A stretch of 64,000 nt of DNA from Argopecten irradians. Its lineage: Eukaryota; Mollusca; Bivalvia; Pectinida; Pectinidae. The translations under genes and the position numbers were made by a program. The DNA is taken from positions 45,870,284 to 45,934,283 of the forward strand of contig NC_091136.1 of assembly GCF_041381155.1 (NCBI RefSeq), in the 5' to 3' direction. Shown piece after piece: positions 42,103 to 52,090 of this stretch. The first letter of the stretch is position 1, and each line of letters opens with the position of its first letter. The notes beneath the pieces are model-generated. The model had not been told where the DNA came from. It saw only the letters and a list, made by a program, of their open reading frames with translations, and ran no database searches.

Positions 42103-43588
42103 ATGGTGAAAATCATAATAGCCATGTCCATATTGTGCGTATTAGCATTAGCTGTGATAGAACCAATATCAACTGCTGAAGAGATTCCCGTTCAAGTCGA
42201 TGAACCACAAACTTACCCTACTACGACCGATGAGCAGGTTGCGATGCTAACCAAACGAATGAACGACTTGGAAGTCCGCCGGGCCCGGGACCTGGAGGAG
42301 CTTGAACTCAAGCGAGCCAGAGACGTCAACGAACTGACCAGGCAAGTCCAAGAGCTATCAAAACTGCATGATAACGATATGCACGAAGCGAAAAAGTTAA
42401 AACAAGAAGTAAAAGAGCTGCGAATGATCTATGTAAAAGAAATCAATATTTTGACGAAACATATCAAGGAATTGGAGAGTCGTTATGAAAAAACCGAACA
42501 GATTGATGTGCTGTTGAATGCGAAAATACCACATTCACTAGATAATAAAACTATGCCTCACGATGCTAACATGATATCACAAGGATCACAAGTTCAGAAG
42601 ACAATGTCCAAGAAACATGCCGTATCAACAAAGTCTAGGTCATCAAGTCCCAAACCCAGTACGAGAGCGACTGGCATTCATTTCGGACACCTGAATACAC
42701 GCGTCAGTACGTATTGAAAGTGCTGTTTGATACAGTTGCTAATAAGATTATTCGTGTTCATGTTTCATGTTCAGAGTAAAGACCACACTTAGATGTTTTT
42801 AAGCCTTAATGCAGCACTGTTTACATGTATATGAATTTATTCGGAAACATTAATATAACTTTCATGTACTTTACAATTGTTTGCTACTGAAGCATTTCAA
42901 TTGTAATTTAACAATGATATAATTAAATCAGGTTAAAATACAAAAGGCGATACACAAATTGAATCTTCATCTTACTATATATATTACTACATATATTACT
43001 AAAACACAGAAAAAATACTCTTTCTCTGATTCAATGAACTCTTTTCCAAAAAATGGTTGAAAATGTTTTACTAGATAATCAATTTAGACATATCATCTTA
43101 GTCTTTATTTTCTATATCGACACTATAAATCGTATATCATTACTGCAAAAATATCGCATAAATGGGTCCATTCTTCTTCAGCTTTAGATGAGGACATTGT
43201 GGCGTTCCATGCTATCCTTAATAAGGAGATATCTAACCCCTCCACAAACCATGTTGTGATATACGACCATCTCATCCTCAACTCTGGAGGTGTTCATTAC
43301 AGCACAAACACCGGCGTCTTTACCTGCCCTCAGACCGGAATTTACGTTTTCTCCTGGACTGTATTTGTACGGAACCACCAGTATATCTACACGGATTTAG
43401 TAAGAAACAATGGCGTAATTGGGTCTGGCTTAGCGACGGACGACCATGACAATTACACGACAGGCTCAGCTACTGCTGCTACACACCTGGAGGTCGGTGA
43501 TGAGGTATGGGTACGCGTCAGCGGCCACGAAGACGGGTCGGATTTGCTACCAAACCTTACCATGTTCACAGGTTTTCGATTGCGATGA
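42103..43588 (+). CDS. C1q-domain-containing secreted protein (intact, two exons)
   Basis: Exon 1 is 42103-42706 and exon 2 is 43182-43588. The donor GTCA|GTACGT and acceptor CTTCTTCAG keep phase 1, giving 336 residues. Residues 1 to about 24 form a signal peptide (MVKIIIAMSILCVLALAVIE). Residues about 48-140 are charged heptads forming a coiled coil (MLTKRMNDLEVRRARDLEEL and following). A Ser/Thr/Lys-rich linker runs to about 200. The gC1q domain fills about 207-336: VAFHAIL, GGVHYSTNTGVFTCPQTGIY, GDEVWVRVSG and C-terminal MFTGFRLR, with the conserved aromatic core. In bivalves such proteins are extracellular pattern-recognition or agglutinating factors; the ligand cannot be read here. AATAAA at 43626-43631 lies 38 bases past the stop. 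This is the only family member in the window with no lesion. Confidence 0.95.
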
Positions 43589-43639: not shown

Positions 43640-44097
43640 AGGCTAAGAGTATTTCGCTTATTTTGACGCATAATTGCTGATATTATGTAAACATCTTTAC
43701 CAATTATATTTATTTTATCGACCTTTGTTAATATGGTGCCTACCTGGTAGATTAAGTAATGGTTGAATATTCACAAAATATTGTGAAACTCTCGGTAAGC
43801 GTCAGGATTTACTGCATTTTGTGACCCTCGAATAGAATCTCCCTATCCTTCATATCCAAATATGAAAGAGAATTTTTCTCTCATACCTCGGCGTTTTATT
43901 TGAATTTTACTGCTATGATATTTATCTATTTTGAAATAAGTTCCATAAATGAAAATGGCGTGATACTTTCATCGCTAATCCCGTTGTTTGCAACTCTTAT
44001 AGTAAACCAGCCTGTGTTGATACCGTGACGTCACGAGGTTGTATTGCATGGGTACCCATACAACACCATGCGACCTCTCAAACAGGCCATAATGGGT
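43640..44097. other. Intergenic between C1q gene and transposon region
   Basis: GTTGTATTGCATGGGTACCC and CATACAACACCATGCGAC near 44038 form a short inverted pair. Nothing else is supported. Confidence 0.45.
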
Positions 44098-44506
44098 TTA
44101 GTACATCACCCTTACATGAGACCCGTTTTCATGTCATCGTAACAGAAGAAAATCAAGCAACACCACGCAACGTTGATACATTAAAAGTACAACATATGAA
44201 TTGTTGCAGAAATCTGTGTTTCTATAAAACGGGATTCAGCTTCATGAATATTAAAAGTAGATTAATATAGAACATGAATGAACTGTCTTCTGTAGAAAAG
44301 CAACATTTGCTTCATTCCCCGCACACAACAGCCTGTCCGCCATTTTGACGTCTTGGTCGAAGCGCAACGTTATAATGACGTCATGTAATGGTGACGTCAC
44401 AATGCATTCACGTTCAATTTTGCGCCACTTCAATAGAGACCGCTTGCAAATAGTAGTCATGTGTGTAGCCAATCAGAATCCAGTATTCTGTCGCGTGATG
44501 TACTAA
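44098..44506. mobile_element. 409 bp TIR element, copy 1 (left flank of YqaJ/transposase pair)
   Basis: The ends TTAGTACATCAC and GTGATGTACTAA are a perfect 12 bp inverted pair. The body matches 51647-52080 in the same orientation: ACATGAGACCCGTTTTCATG, GGGATTCAGCTTCATGAA, AGAAAAGCAACATTTGCTTC, ACAACAGCCTGTCCGCCATT, TAATGACGTCATGTAATGG and AGCCAATCAGAATC. On the minus strand it resembles a promoter with an inverted CCAAT, a TGACGTCA CRE and then ATGGCGGACAGGCTGTTGTG. Confidence 0.75.
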
Positions 44507-44527
44507 TTATCTATTATGGCCTGGTTG

Positions 44528-44602
44528 AGAGGGCACTATTGCCTCATAGTATTGTTGAGGGATAGAATAGTGCCCGAGCCGACGAATACGAGGGCACTAT
44601 CC
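44528..44602. repeat. GGGCACTAT inverted repeats, possible left end of two-gene transposon
   Basis: GAGGGCACTATTG (44530), ATAGTGCCC (44569) and GAGGGCACTATCCC (44591) alternate in orientation. CAATAGTGCCC and GGGCACTATTG also occur around 51990-52013 at the other side of the two genes. A terminal role is inference. Confidence 0.45.
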
Positions 44603-44688
44603 CATAAATATCTAGAATAGGAGATTTCAGAAAAGATGGCGTGACGTCACAGAAAGTTTACATCCGGGTCCTCAAAGGTACAACCGCA

Positions 44689-47600
44689 ATGGCGACAGAT
44701 GTAAACACTACCAAACACTTCGCTACTTTCGACGAAGATGACATACCCGGAGCGTCGCTTAGGGGAAAACAACCAGAACATCTTACAAAAGCAGCTCTTT
44801 TACAATGGCTACGTTGCAGAAGTGGAGCAAGTTTAAAAGGAAAAAAGGCAGAATTAGTGGAAAGGTAGGCCCGACTTGCAGGTATACTGCAGTACACGTG
44901 TGTACCGCGTGTATATCACTTATGCATTATAATCGTCCATAATAATCGGAAAATATGTGTTTTCCTGTAAGAATAATGTTTCAAAAAGAAAGGTATTTAC
45001 GAGAATATTCTGGATAGCAAGTCTGGTATTGAAATCAGTTCATTAGAATACGTTTTTAAAGTAGGTAGCGGCTCGGCCCGTCCATTTTTTACAGTCCCAT
45101 AGGCTATAATGGCTGACGACCATTTCTCGCCTAGTACCCATTCTCGACATCGCATGTGTATTTGGATGGCTACACACGAATTTTCGTGAATAAAATACAT
45201 CTTCTGATCGAAGATGTTCCATTATAAAATCTTGCTTGAAAAGTCAGGGAAGTATAGGCCTAGGCCTTTTGTACTCGTGCAATTATATAGGCCTATGGCG
45301 AGAATGGATTCTCAAGGCATTATGGCCGCAATTCGACTGCAGACTACACACAAACATGGGGATGGAGGTTTGGGGGAGGTCATATATATTTCTACAGTTA
45401 TACATATACAGACCTAATCCACTTTTCCATTTTATAACAGACTCCATACTTTCTAGTTACACAGTACTTTGATTCTATTATTTATCTCTAAAACTTACTA
45501 ACTGTGGTTTCAATCATTAGCATGGAATGCTGGAATAAATTGTAAGCTGATAGCACCCTGAATGAGTGATATATAAATTACCCCCGCGCACACACATACA
45601 CACTCATGTATCGAGTTATCAGACTATTCATCCATGTGTCTGGTGTTTGTTCACAAATTTTGTAAGATAATTAACCCCATGTGGTCTATATTTTTTGCAA
45701 TCTTGGATTTTAACTATGAAAAAAGTAAACTTTTGCATTTAACATATTAATGCTAACATTATAAAGCAAAGTTGTTAAAAACTATAAACAATGTGAGTCG
45801 TGGTGGCTGAGTGGTTAGGATGTCTTGAAATGTTACCATAAGCCCTCCACTTCGCGAGTTCGAATCCCACATGGGGCAGTTGCCAGCGCTGATCGCTGGT
45901 TGGTAGTTTTTCTCCGGATACTCCGGCTTTCCTCCAGCCGACAAACCTGGCACGTCCTTATATTATATTACATGACGCTGGCTGTTAATAGGACGTTAAA
46001 CTAATAAACCCAAACCCATAAATAATGAGTTAATTAAAAGGATTCAATGTCATACATTAAAGGTCAAGGTTAAATTTAGAGTTATGAGCATTATAATATA
46101 ATATCTTCCATCGAAAGCAATGAAAATAAACAAAGGCTCTGACAATATAGGTCAGTAACATTGCATCAGGTCAAGGCTCAAGGTCATTTAGCCAGATCTG
46201 AAGTCAAGTATTCCATTTCTGATTTCAAAAAGACAAACTTTTTTTTTCTTCACATTATGCTTTAAGTGAAGAGCTTTTTGTGATATAAACAGGGAGTTTG
46301 ATACAGTAGAATCTGATATGATGCCATATCCCTGAAAGACAATTTTGTTCTTTGCCCCTTTGGTGCTTTGTATAAATATATAAATAAGTTTGACTGTAGT
46401 ACATTATAATTTCTTTTTAAGTTTTAATAAAAATAAATGTTTATATTTTCCAGGGTAAAGTTCTACATCCAGCATGGTTGGGACACCAAATACCTTGTGC
46501 ATCCAGATAGACACAATAAGAAAATATACAGCCAAGCTACCATTGAGAACAACAGCTCATTTTTGGAATCTCATCCACCACCTGCAGGATATACTTCCTA
46601 CCTTGATGGCGTTCCATTCATAGATGACGGTGACATCCATCAGTACTTCTTGGTAAAATGTGATGACAACAGCGCTACTGCCAAAAAACACAGAGACACT
46701 GGATGGACTTTCTTTAAGTCTGGTAAAGTGATATCATCAGAATTCAAGATGGACATTGATGACAGCGTTCTACTGCTTAGAGGAAATGTAGAAGCATCAT
46801 TTGACAGAGGGATTATAACAGGCAAGACAAAGAAACATTACTTCACTTATGTTTGCTGTGATAAACATTCAGGGACAATACTAGGTGGTCGATGCTTTTG
46901 CAAAGCTGGCCTAGGTGGGTACTGCAAACATGTTGCAGCAGTTTTGTTCCACGTAATGGACAGTCAACGACAAGGCTATAAATTTACACCAAAAGGACGG
47001 ACATGCATCAGGTTTTCAGACTTAGCATTTGAGTCTTTCAATTTTGAAAGAGAGAATGACTGCTCTACAATTAAGAAACAGAAGACAGACTATAAAAATC
47101 TGTCATCGTGTCCTGATGAAGATTTGTGTGTTCATGAGGAGGAAATTGAAACATTTTCTAGTTACTTATCTGCCCTTGGAGTAGCAGAACAATTTACAGA
47201 AATCCTGAATGCCAATTGTCATCAGCCTGCTTATCAGTGTCCAACACAAAGTACAGAAACACAACATGCAGTAGAAGAGAAGCGCTCTGATCATGTGAAA
47301 ACACGTTTCAATCTTGAACATTCTGTCTCGCCAGATCAGCACATGTTTTATGAAAGGAATGTTTGTGTTAAAGACATATCCCATCAAATGGACATTTCAA
47401 CTAAAACAAAGGGCCAGGCAAAGACAAAGAAATGGATGGAAGAGAGGTGTAAGAGAATTACTGCATCAAACTTCAAAAAAGTGTGCAATCGAAGGAAATA
47501 TCCCTGTGAGAAGTTTGTCACCAGTTTGTCGAAGCCAAAACAGTTCCAGTCAGCGCATACTGCATGGGGACATCAAGCAGAAGGTGTGGCATTGGCGCAG

Positions 47601-48056
47601 TACAAAAGTGAGAAGACTAGAGAAGGATTTACTGTTGTCACGCAAGATTTAGGTCTGGTTGTCAATCCTCAGTTCCCCTATTTGGGTGCATCACCAGATG
47701 CTTTCGTTTCTTTGACTTCTAAGACAGGCACAGAGTTCCAAGGCTTGGTGGAAGTGAAATCATTATCTAAATATTCTGACATCACACCGGAGCAGGCATC
47801 ATGTATGCCCGACAGTTTTTATGACTTTGATGATGGCCAGTTGAAAATTAAGGAGGACCATTCCTACTATTACCAAATCCAAGGACAACTTGCTGTGTGT
47901 GATGTGGAGTGGTGTGACTTGGTTGTGTGGACTCCTGTTGGAATGGCTATTCAGAGAGTAATGCGTAACAGAACATTTTGGTCATCAGTTTTCCCCAAAC
48001 TGACATCTTTTTATTTCGAATACATGTTGCCTTTGCTGGCAAGGAATGAAGATTGA
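44689..48056 (+). CDS. SAP-SWIM-YqaJ nuclease protein of a DNA transposon (two exons)
   Basis: Exon 1 is 44689-44864 and exon 2 is 46454-48056, joined in phase 2 (GAAAG|GTAGGC; TATTTTCCAG|G), giving 592 residues. Residues about 30-60 are SAP-like (LTKAALLQWLRCRSGASLKG, then KKAELVER), a DNA-binding helix pair. Residues 206-218 form a SWIM zinc finger (C206-x-C208...C216-x-H218). Residues about 385-585 are a YqaJ-type PD-(D/E)xK exonuclease: RITASNF, GHQAEGVAL (E435), LGASPDA (D474), GLVEVKS (E492, K494) and YYQIQGQLAV (Q536). All core catalytic residues are present. It probably processes DNA ends or intermediates during transposition alongside the convergent transposase. The start at 44689 fits better than the upstream GTG-led frame because it follows a short leader with a TGACGTCAC site. 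Host-domesticated use cannot be excluded, as intact YqaJ/SWIM genes are abundant in bivalves. Confidence 0.88.
45794..46012 (+). mobile_element. tRNA-derived SINE in YqaJ gene intron
   Basis: A box GTGGCTGAGTGGTTAGGATG, B box GAGTTCGAATCCC, body TTTTTCTCCGGATACTCCGG, and tail GGCTGTTAATAGGACGTTAA with ACTAATAAA. Nearly full length, with a small TA-rich insertion before the tail. Confidence 0.92.
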
Positions 48057-49462
48057 ATGCCATTTTGAATTGTTAAATGTACATGTGTATAAAGAACTGT
48101 GATTTATGTAGACTGGCTACTGTATGTACCATAGTTCTTTTGAACATTTACACATACAAAACAATAGAAGTGTTCAGAATGAATTTCATATACTATGAAG
48201 ATAAGTTAAGATTTTCTTTTCTTTTAATGTAAGTTCTTATATAAGAAATTCAGCATGATATTTATTTAAGGACTTTATACATAAATAATGAAAAATAATT
48301 ACATAACCATTAACCATATGCATAATCTTACAAGATTGTGTCATGGTGTACTTTGATTTTTTCTTTTAGTGACACTCTGGGTTGTTTTGAGTTTGAAATC
48401 CAGTGATCTGGTACTGATAGATGTTTTGTGGCTTTTCTCTGGTTCTCCTGCTTTCAATTCTTTCATCAACCTCAAGCTCGAGCTTCCATATACATGTATA
48501 TAAGCATGGCCTGACCTTAAATGACACCAATGTGTTTATATAATAGGTTATAAAAAATATACTAGCAGATATAGCTTATAAATATTACTGGTAAGCCAAA
48601 TAAAATAAATGTGGAAGCTTAAACAATGGTTTCATTACATGAAGGTATACCATCCTTGCATATTACAGAGTTATGCCCTTGCAGGTATAAGTTTCAATAT
48701 ATTATGTTTGTCACATCATTATTTTGATAGCAAAAATTCCATCATTTGCACTGAAAAATGTGTTGTTGCACTCATACAAACATGACATAACAATCTTAAC
48801 CAATCCACAAGGGCAGATAACTCTGTAATATGCAAATACAGAATACATGGTTTTAAAACAAACAGAAAATGAAAGTATATAGGCATGAATTATTTTATTG
48901 TTAATATCGAACAGTCAACAAACATAAGATTATTATAAGTTTAGAATTCTATCATAAATAATTGCACCAAACTTGCAAGTAAAATACTAAAATATAAACA
49001 TATATATAAATACTAAACTATTTAATGTCAGATGACATTTCTCCAAATAACCCAAGGTTATTATATTCTGGTCTTCCAAGAATTACTACTATATAGTACA
49101 TCTTAGTTTATATTGTGATTTCATCTATTTATTTCATATGTATCATTAAATGATGTTGTGTAATTCATGATCATTATCAGATGTAATAATATAAATATAA
49201 ATATATTAAATGTCATGTGATACTTCATATTTAAGCAATTGATGTTGCAGTTTGCAAAATCAAAATTGTATGTTACTTTGACATATCAATAAACATACAC
49301 TTATTCTGTTATATCCTGGATCTGTTGTATTTCTATGATTAAATGAAATGGATATCTCCACCATGCATTTAGTCACAGGTTACTCATACATGTACAAGTT
49401 CAAATGAATTTTCAACAGAAGGAATCACTAGGTATCAAGCTTGATATATCCAAATATGTAAA
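48057..49462. other. Spacer between convergent YqaJ and transposase genes
   Basis: Contains a decayed SINE tail (about 48365-48560: CTCTGGTTCTCCTGCTTTC, then AATAGGTTATAA). The recurrent word GGGCAGATAACTCTGTAATA lies at 48811. It is otherwise AT-rich with no gene. Confidence 0.6.
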
Positions 49463-51021
49463 TTAGTCATCAATCAGCTTCGGCTGGAAATGAGTTAAAA
49501 TGGCACATATTTTCCAAATGTCATTCAGCATTCTCCATTGTTTATATGGAAAATTTTCCTGCAGAATCCGGAAATTTTTTATTCTCTCTATGGCCCTTTC
49601 AACATGTATGCGTAACCTGGCGATTCGTCTGGTGGAGGTTTCTTGTTGAATACTCATTTGATGCACACCTCGCAGTATAGGAGGGTGGTCCACCCGTACA
49701 TTAAGAGGATCCAACAAGTCTTGGATCTCAAACCCTTTGTCTGCCATGATGTGGTCGTCCTCCTGAATTAGATTCAATAACCCACAGTCCTTGGTGATAT
49801 CATAATCTGGTGCTGAACCCGCATACAAGTCTGATACAAAGGTTACAGGACCATGCGGTGCAATAGCTACAAGACCTTTAGCAGTGTGGTGGTTTTTGTA
49901 GGTACTAAATAGCACTGTCTTTAAGACCAAGTTGGAGGAAGGCTGCTGTATGAAGATTTCAGTACAGTCAATAATACATCTTGTGTTACTGTAACCCAGG
50001 TCTTGGAAGGTTTGTGGCAAACGACGAGTGATGAGACTCCTTGGCGCCCAGATTGGAAGCTGAGTAAGCACATGTCCCATGTGTTTGATCCATTTGCTGA
50101 TGATGTCGCTGACAGTTGATGTGGAAATTTCAAAACGATGAGCCAAGTCAACTTCTCTGTGACCTTGTCTTAATCTGCATAGTACAAGAAACAGTTGTTC
50201 ATGAATACTGAGAATGGGGTCTCTCCCTCGGTTTAAAGCATATGCACTATCTGTGTCTTTCCGCTCATAGTACAGTGACTGCATTTTGTGTCTTTCTGGT
50301 TGTAAGAAGTCACATAGGGCCAAGAAAGTTAAGTAATCTGGCATTCCTGTGTAAAACTGAATATCACAAGGAGAACATCTAAATTGTTCGATACCAAACA
50401 CATTCCCATTTATTTTCTCATGAAGTTGAAGTCTGAGATCTGCATTCTGTCTCATCTCTACATCCAGCAGGTCTTTAAGATGTTGTATTAAAGAATCTTT
50501 GGCATTCGGCGTGCTTTTGGAAACATGAGGTCGAACCTGATGATCAATTAAAAAAAAAAAACTTAAAAAAACTTATATTGAAAAGAATTGGTCACAATGA
50601 ACTAACTAAAAATAAGTTGTGAAATAATAATGTATTGTTATATAATGATGTGAAGGTGATGTTCAATTTTATTTTCATAATGAATACCGGTATGTAATCT
50701 TGATTGAAATTTACTTAGGGGTAAATAATTTCCCAAAATCAGTCATAATAACATATTAACATTCATATTTGTAAAAATGATATATAAATCTGACTCCATT
50801 TTATATCATTATATCAGATCGCTATTGAGAAATGTTCAAGTTCAACATACCCCATCTGGCTCTTTGTTAGTCTTTTTCTTCAAAAACTTAAGTTTTTTTT
50901 TGAGAGGCGGAGATTGCATAACAGATGTGTGCGCAGATGTCATAACCTGGTTGTAAATGGATTTTACAGCTGAAGTCATTTCATTTATCTCATCCGCTTT
51001 TCTTTTCTCAATCTCTTTCAC
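49463..51021 (-). CDS. DDE_Tnp_4 (PIF/Harbinger/ISL2EU-like) transposase, two exons seen, 5' exon missing
   Basis: On the minus strand, exon 51021-50851 (57 codons, phase 0; acceptor TTTTTATAG, donor GGG|GTATGT) joins exon 50536-49463 (acceptor GATCATCAG). Together they give 414 residues without a start. The first exon is Lys-rich with a candidate nuclear signal (KKKLKFLKKK). Numbered from the Met at 50455, residues about 99-122 form a helix-turn-helix (VDLAHRFEISTSTVSDIISK). The RNase H-fold triad is visible as CIID(163)CTEIF, SDLYAGSAPDYDIT (second Asp, D209 or D217), MAD(239)KGF and HVE(286)RAIERIKNF. This is the family pattern of DDE_Tnp_4. No frameshift or stop interrupts the catalytic core. 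A 5' exon, perhaps in 51.6-52.0 kb, is needed to supply the start codon. Confidence 0.9.
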
Positions 51022-51646
51022 CTATAAAAAGTAAATAAAGAAATGAATGCTATGTACACGAGTGGTAAAATTATCTACACATGCATATATTATGTCCCAT
51101 GTATATATTATATATACATGCCATGATTTAATTCATTGTTCAATTTATTAATAAGATAATTAGTAGCAGTATAAATTTCCCAAAAAAAATCTTGAACTCA
51201 TATGCATGCCAATCCCATAAACTGGTTTACACCAGATGTAAAAAACAACTCAACTGTACTGCATATATATATTTATATTTATGTTGTAAACACTGCAAAT
51301 TAATTGTTATTGAATTAAAATCAATTAGGCCTTCTGTAGCTATGAAAATTGTGGTTTCCAAACTTATATTATCTTGATTTTGCAAGTGTGCCTAATGTTG
51401 ACTTTTTTAGTTTTGTTCAGTAAATACCTTTAAATCAATTATACATTGCTTACTCAATAAATTTGTCAGTATTTTTCTGTTTGAACCCTCTTTGCTCTAA
51501 TGCATATGCAAAAATGTAATGCGCTTTTTAAATTAAGTCGTGTATGTTATTATTATTATGTATGTCAAATAGGTCCCCTCATTTTTGAGGGTAACTCAAT
51601 GTACCCTTTCCTTCTGATAAAAATTTTTTTTTTGGAAAACAAATCA
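51022..51646. other. Upstream of transposase exon, nothing certain
   Basis: AT-rich. This should contain an intron of the transposase gene. No start exon could be fixed. Confidence 0.45.
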
Positions 51647-52090
51647 CCCTCACATGAGACCCGTTTTCATGTCATCGCAACAGAAACACGTCAAACAACA
51701 CCTCGCAACGATATCTTCATTTCCACACCAAGTTGTTACATAAAAAGTACAACATATCAATTGTCACAGAAAACTGTGTTTCTATAAAAAGGGATTCAGC
51801 TTCATGAAGATTAAAAGTATATCAACATGAGTAAACTGTCTTTTGTAGAAAAGCAACATTTGCTTCCACCCCCGCACACAACAGCCTGTCCGCCATTTTG
51901 ACATCTTGGTCGAAGCGTAACGTTATAATGACGTCATGTAATGGTGACGTCACAATGCATTCACGTGCAATTTCGCGCCACTTCAATAGTGCCCGTTTGC
52001 CCGGGCACTATTGCAAATAGTACCCATGTGTTTAGCCAATCAGAATCAAGTATTCTGTCACATGATGTACTAATATACACAATAATGGCT
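51647..52090. mobile_element. Second copy of the 44.1 kb element (right flank of gene pair)
   Basis: Same orientation as 44098-44506 and highly similar across its length. The left TIR is degraded (AACAAATCACCC) but the right end GATGTACTAA is kept. It has 13-14 extra bases forming a GTTTGCCCGGGCACTATTGC hairpin arm at 51999-52013. The minus strand has an inverted CCAAT box, TGACGTCA and ATGGCGGACAGGCTG, so it may supply the promoter or first exon of the transposase gene. Confidence 0.75.

Follow-up and report, generated by a model that had tools for sequence, protein, structure and literature searches.

The closest described relatives of the locus considered here are the ISL2EU elements, a group of the PHIS superfamily (Han et al. 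2015, PMC4482050), which, in those parts of the published accounts that were available, encode a THAP-HTH-DDE transposase together with an open reading frame (ORF) for a YqaJ exonuclease (PMC4482050, PMC9179366). A two-gene layout for the group is, to judge from the same parts of these papers, already in print, and scallop YqaJ and HTH_Tnp_4 genes are counted among transposition-related families in the portion consulted of PMC10225492. The locus lies in a stretch of 64,000 nucleotides from Argopecten irradians (contig NC_091136.1, positions 45,870,284 to 45,934,283 of the forward strand), referred to here, at its full length, as the window. Its two convergent genes, one for a YqaJ nuclease with SAP-like and SWIM motifs and one for a DDE_Tnp_4 transposase, very probably belong to a DNA transposon of the ISL2EU group, present here as a non-autonomous copy that is truncated on its right side.

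With ISL2EU the element shares the THAP-HTH-DDE transposase, the YqaJ ORF, inverted repeats, a 2-bp A/T duplication and an animal host (the THAP domain and the right-hand repeat being taken from a sister copy on contig C13), and the statement in the original prediction that ISL2EU elements carry a YqaJ partner fits the published description as far as it was seen. ISL2EU duplicates AT within A/AT/T, and the 2 bp duplicated here may be AT or TA. There are also differences: ISL2EU repeats usually begin GG, whereas these begin AGG or GG; and ISL2EU elements average 4.84 kb (PMC4482050, in the part available), whereas even the truncated window copy is already about 7 kb. PIF/Harbinger elements likewise combine a DDE_Tnp_4-type transposase with a second gene, but there, according to partial sources, the second gene is of Myb/SANT type and the duplication is 5'-TWA, as against YqaJ and 2 bp here. 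No Myb/SANT domain was found among the Pfam matches of the two genes, and a 3-bp direct repeat is absent at the ends of both fully read insertions (the C13 copy and a derivative on C1); the C1 derivative alone would also allow TATA, but C13 does not. Spy elements, on a similarly incomplete view of their description, have a related DDE core but mostly consist of a single gene and make no target duplication, in contrast to the two genes and 2 bp seen here. KolobokE, KolobokD and KolobokP are, in the portion seen of PMC9587614, DNA transposons with a second nuclease, that of KolobokE being lambda-exonuclease-like, but they belong to another transposase superfamily and duplicate TTAA. Finally, lambda exonuclease, LHK-Exo and the viral alkaline nucleases share the fold and the acidic and lysine residues of the YqaJ core, but in the present case, unlike in those enzymes, this core belongs to a protein that also carries SAP-like and SWIM motifs and whose gene lies in an animal transposon; the titles and opening lines of abstracts found by a literature search name no SWIM-YqaJ combination in a transposon.

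The limits of the window copy are best seen by comparison with its sister. C13:3034387-3050235 matches window positions 44604-51644 in four pieces at 94-99% identity, and nothing outside them, so that the limits originally proposed (44528-52015), both of which fall in a high-copy repeat, had to be replaced. Past the point at which the window copy stops, the C13 copy goes on with a THAP exon (3033691-3034143; PF05485 at 27.0 bits, cut-off 23.9), after which the left end recurs in inverted form (C13:3033542-3033609, 98.5% over 68 columns); from this it follows that the window copy has lost its transposase start, THAP domain and right terminal repeat. The notion of a potentially live copy was therefore abandoned: the window copy has neither transposase exon 1 nor the right terminal repeat, its YqaJ gene is short of 51 bp, and it is non-autonomous and not live, very probably an unremarkable, decayed representative of ISL2EU. 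The C13 copy, for its part, holds three extra stretches of 1.0, 3.4 and 4.2 kb. Two of these (C13:3037792-3042010 and 3044958-3048352) lie at similar GTACTTTG sites, each ending in AGTACTTTCAGTACTTTG, and are possibly a site-selective element.

What remains of the two genes agrees well with their original description as open and convergent (ORFs 46437-48056 on the forward strand and 49463-50572 on the reverse). The claimed agreement of splice phases also holds, in that joining 44689-44864 to 46454-48056 yields a nuclease of 592 residues without internal stops, the reading frame of the transposase continues from exon 51021-50851 into exon 50536-49463, and the introns read in both genes are GT-AG. 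Between the window and C13 copies the translation of nuclease exon 1 is 100% identical, and exon 2 shows 0 mismatches in 1603 aligned nucleotides, with gaps of 51, 2, 1 and 1; the 51-bp deletion removes 17 residues of the window protein, including LQTWHQP, which corresponds to a conserved LQTWHxP motif kept by most relatives. Pfam recognises YqaJ in the window protein (PF09588, 7.2e-15), and the catalytic residues named in the original prediction, D474, E492 and K494, are D421, E439 and K441 of the alignment, where the first two are invariant in 15 rows and the lysine is present in at least 90%. Within the intron of this gene a tRNA-like short interspersed element (SINE) was suspected by eye at 45793-46004, a stretch whose tRNA-like head drew nothing from ARAGORN, nor from Rfam at its gathering threshold.

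For the transposase, Pfam reports DDE_Tnp_4 (6e-40) and HTH_Tnp_4 (4.7e-15). Three of the residues originally named, D163, D217 and E286, become D184, D238 and E307 in the 351-residue numbering (a shift of 21) and are conserved in 120/120, 120/120 and 119/119 sequences respectively; the alternative aspartate D209 (now D230) is not among the near-invariant acidic columns listed. A public Argopecten irradians protein is 100% identical over the 351-residue query, its gene model beginning inside the linker exon; the public model at the window locus, P0022, also has no THAP exon (it comes from the same assembly). A sequence search of the PDB with either main exon, at E values up to 1, gave no match.

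The ends of the element can be followed well beyond these two copies. When the genome was searched with the left end, the best 40 of 1158 first-look candidates yielded 41 matches, and from these 17 short stretches were read to give 18 ends, a top-scored choice that favours complete ends. Together with the window and C13, 21/21 ends read ATA/GGAG (the slash marking the junction), the base preceding ATA is A or T in 20/21, and the flanks are mostly unrelated. Outside the canonical left end (44604-44618) a further 11-13 bp are common to the window and C13 copies, with AT in front of them in each copy, which suggests, from the sequence, a shifted left end in this sub-lineage. In a 3.1-kb derivative on C1, AT adjoins both ends. 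The two ends that share one flank (L085 and L086) lie in a repeat, uninserted versions of which are continuous across the insertion point in 3/3 cases fetched, the empty site reading ATAATATTT. These observations support precise insertion with a target duplication of 2 bp, which is either AT or TA as a single base is ambiguous; the terminal repeat begins GGAG if it is TA and AGGAG if it is AT. There are many further end-bearing copies in the genome, apparently non-autonomous.

The association of the two genes is equally a matter of counting. Searches of the genome gave at least 84 rows for the nuclease (78 places after merging of pieces) and at least 118 for the transposase (115 places), and a transposase partner lies within 8 kb at 44/78 of the nuclease places listed. 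Of these 44 pairs 33 are convergent, 11 have the partner on the other side, and none is on the same strand. On the 14 large contigs 32/61 nuclease places are paired, as against a mean of 0.144 and a maximum of 2 in 1000 shuffles, a comparison in which near-identical copies are counted separately. Identity distances for the two proteins are also correlated (r 0.758, reached in 0/20000 permutations) over 12 distinct pairs, comprising 10 from the Argopecten irradians genome and 2 public ones; a first run with 13 pairs, near-identical ones included, had given r 0.906. In two public pairs both members come from contigs of equal length, P0009/P0036 (6959 bp) and P0014/P0043 (47284028 bp, Ptychodera flava). 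The nuclease and transposase trees agree on the main groups. All this suggests, on sequence grounds, that both genes evolve as a pair, and the pairing (44/78, none on the same strand) taken with the matching divergence points to the viral-type nuclease as a working part of the transposition system. The prospect that no other locus would carry the two genes side by side, or that copies would share no termini, was not borne out: there are many such loci, and shared termini exist.

There are, nevertheless, several points that tell against this picture. No partner is listed within 8 kb for 34/78 nuclease and 71/115 transposase places, some of which may be single-gene copies, and the two trees place L043 differently. 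The transposase exons of the window and C13 differ at 39 of 1073 aligned bases and by several gaps, so that the pair is not uniformly near-identical; some of these differences fall where C13 runs into a long homopolymer, a region that looks like assembly noise. Both ends of a single insertion have been seen only in C13, where the left end is shifted, and in one C1 derivative, and the duplication could be TA rather than AT. As to the designation SAP-SWIM-YqaJ, YqaJ is recognised by Pfam and the SWIM CxC/CxH residues are invariant in 15 proteins, but in the window protein SWIM (18.1 bits, cut-off 19.6) and SAP (12.9 bits in the joined protein, cut-off 23.9) both fall below threshold. Among relatives, SAP exceeds the cut-off in the insect protein P0017 (50.3 bits) and is below it in P0009 and P0014, and SWIM is below it in all four where it is listed.

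Two explanations would do away with the element as delimited here. One is that the genes belong to unrelated neighbouring elements, or that the direct repeats at 44074-44605 and 51643-52074 are the two boundaries of a composite transposon. Long direct repeats do indeed flank the genes at a spacing of about 7.55 kb, and KolobokP, which has molluscs among its hosts, possesses long terminal direct repeats (PMC9587614, in the portion seen; the flanking repeat was compared with it by description only). Direct repeats as element ends were ruled out, as the C13 copy lacks them at its ends: it carries both genes between inverted repeats. The flanking repeat also occurs elsewhere gene-free and in tandem (the flanking part of the query alone was matched in 37/40 scored places, these being the best 40 of 1829 candidates), and pairing is far above that in the shuffles, so that the idea is scarcely credible. 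The other explanation, that the right end is missing through an error of assembly and the real copy is complete, draws on the small gaps between copies and the long C13 homopolymer, which suggest local noise; it is nonetheless very improbable, given that the junction runs straight into a normal repeat unit and that P0022 lacks the THAP exon too, though that model derives from the same assembly.

Rather more finely balanced is what the nuclease of this truncated ISL2EU-type element would do. In the mechanism favoured here the transposase would, by analogy with its families, bind the terminal repeats via its THAP domain and cut and join at A/T dinucleotides via its DDE site; the SAP-SWIM-YqaJ protein would bind DNA and resect the 5' ends where the transposase had made a break; and repair of the donor site would then recopy the element from the sister chromatid or homologue, with a rise in copy number. 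The resection step, taken alone, has a little less than an even chance of being right, and is favoured because the transposase has a DNA-binding domain of its own; nothing in the sequence distinguishes it from other nuclease roles, which counts against it. The structure that AlphaFold predicts for the nuclease exon (mean pLDDT 77.5, pTM 0.49) is matched by Foldseek to LHK-Exo (3syy, E 5.8e-08), lambda exonuclease (8.2e-07), Cas4-like and herpesvirus nucleases, and resembles giant-virus and baculovirus nucleases also; this predicted fold, with the correlated divergence, makes the DNA-end processing originally proposed plausible rather than certain. In Tn7 a PD-(D/E)xK protein, TnsA, acts alongside a DDE protein, TnsB, and by analogy the YqaJ protein could be a second enzyme for cutting ends, cleaving or trimming whichever strand the transposase leaves untouched. 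The predicted PD-(D/E)xK-type fold matches, and opposite-strand pairing in 44/44 cases and correlated divergence would fit a physical complex, but the top Foldseek ranks are held by lambda-exonuclease-type enzymes, none of the 50 matches listed, out of 349, is named as a TnsA chain, and the related Spy elements, as far as their description was available, are mostly a transposase alone, so that the DDE core can probably cut both strands; a TnsA-like role is on balance rather unlikely. Less likely again is that the protein would be mainly a partner for DNA binding and transport, with nuclease activity secondary, after the manner of the Harbinger Myb-like protein, which interacts with its transposase, shares in nuclear import and binds terminal repeats (PMC9179366, in the part available). 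The two-gene layout and the SAP-like and SWIM motifs would suit such a helper, but all 15 aligned rows keep the catalytic D and E, and the transposases of the group have their own THAP domain (in the C13 exon and in many relatives).

Table 1 Features of the putative ISL2EU element in the window and of its immediate flanks.
Feature	Position	Strand	Basis or remark
Putative ISL2EU element, right-truncated	44606..51644	.	Left end kept, right end lost; matched by C13:3034387-3050235
Canonical left terminal inverted repeat	44619..44683	+	Starts AGGAGATTTCAGAAAAGATGGCG; AT at 44617-44618; inverted copy in C13
AT beside the left end shared by window and C13, candidate target duplication	44604..44605	.	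Window CCCAT/AAATATCTAGAATAGGAG, C13 CTAGAT/AAATATCTAGAATAGGAG
Nuclease exon 1	44689..44864	+	N-terminus and first part of SAP-like motif; frame continues into exon 2, donor GT at 44865
Nuclease exon 2	46454..48056	+	Rest of SAP-like motif, SWIM, YqaJ, stop
SWIM zinc-finger motif CxC...CxH	46893..46931	+	Residues the same in all 15 aligned proteins
51-bp in-frame deletion site	46990..46991	+	By comparison with C13 and relatives; 7-bp repeats AAAAGGA on either side
YqaJ / lambda-exonuclease-like nuclease domain	47430..47903	+	Pfam PF09588; predicted-structure matches
Transposase main exon	49463..50536	-	HTH_Tnp_4 50066-50212, DDE_Tnp_4 49493-49972; Pfam, conserved acidic residues, splice acceptor
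Transposase linker exon	50851..51021	-	Splice sites and frame; in public protein P0022 from first Met on
Right breakpoint	51643..51645	.	Element ends before lost THAP exon; flanking repeat resumes
Left flank, high-copy repeat outside element	44074..44605	.	Hairpin of about 160 bp; in places tandem with period near 590 bp
Right flank, another unit of left-flank repeat, direct orientation	51643..52074	.	Repeat comparison

The element sits inside the flanking repeat, about 60 bp of which are missing at the right junction, and is adjoined by an ORF with a C1q domain (window 43088-43588, forward strand; Pfam 2.5e-21).

In three families of relatives the two genes are probably more than adjacent. 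Wide stretches were read at four places, and in these the genes appear to be interleaved on opposite strands: family A at C13:24247435-24257061 (L072+L045+L073) and its C1 copy, family B at C10:35128897-35138529 (L075+L059+L074), and family C at C4:35730000-35738999 (L078). Family A begins with nuclease exons (+), which are followed by the DDE exon (-) and the catalytic exon of the nuclease (+), and it ends with the transposase exons for the linker, placed by eye, and for THAP (-); the junctions read are GT-AG. Families B and C have the family-A exon order on the other strand, the second THAP exon alone having been found in B, by a weak match (E 9e-4). Two family-A copies align as one unit over 5.4 kb at 99.1%; AT is present at both ends of one, while the other is without the left AT. 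The gene model of P0142, a public Argopecten protein, takes in three nuclease exons of the family-A copy on C1 and has the transposase exon within its last intron. The first Met falls at residue 89 of the catalytic nuclease ORF and residue 20 of the transposase ORF in family A, and at residue 117 of the transposase ORF and residue 23 of the nuclease ORF in family B; the A nuclease and B transposase, with first Met so far in (89 and 117), would thus make poor standalone genes, while the A transposase and B nuclease ORFs could, as read, serve as such.

Pairs of this kind, with the partner upstream, had been read as head-to-head, a view replaced by interleaving for the three families once wider stretches were read; 9/11 of such pairs are spaced 367-617 bp, and two others were noted at 3.7-4.1 kb (C9:36.10 Mb and C6:30.15 Mb). 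Families A, B and C form a clade in both trees (100% ultrafast bootstrap), with A and B about 46% identical in the nuclease and about 52% in the transposase. Relatives of these nucleases from Haliotis, Tegillarca and Glandiceps (P0143, P0144, P0147) are contiguous proteins. There is probably an interlocked branch of ISL2EU in which the catalytic exon of the transposase lies in a nuclease intron and that of the nuclease in a transposase intron on the opposite strand, and this layout would have outlasted the divergence of A from B. Interleaving is not mentioned in the available part of the ISL2EU description (PMC4482050), and literature searches gave no report of interleaved genes in such elements, Repbase and Dfam, which may record the layout, being outside their scope.

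Whether the nuclease is a working part of transposition is a question that PMC4482050, in the part available, leaves open, and it is to this question that the pairing and matched divergence speak. If the interlocking is real, the two activities would be hard to separate by simple deletion, and the two pre-mRNAs would be mutually antisense, which could couple or self-limit their expression. Should it be confirmed by transcripts, it would represent an unusual gene architecture that has become fixed in mobile DNA, and would offer a natural experiment in how two selfish genes are held together.

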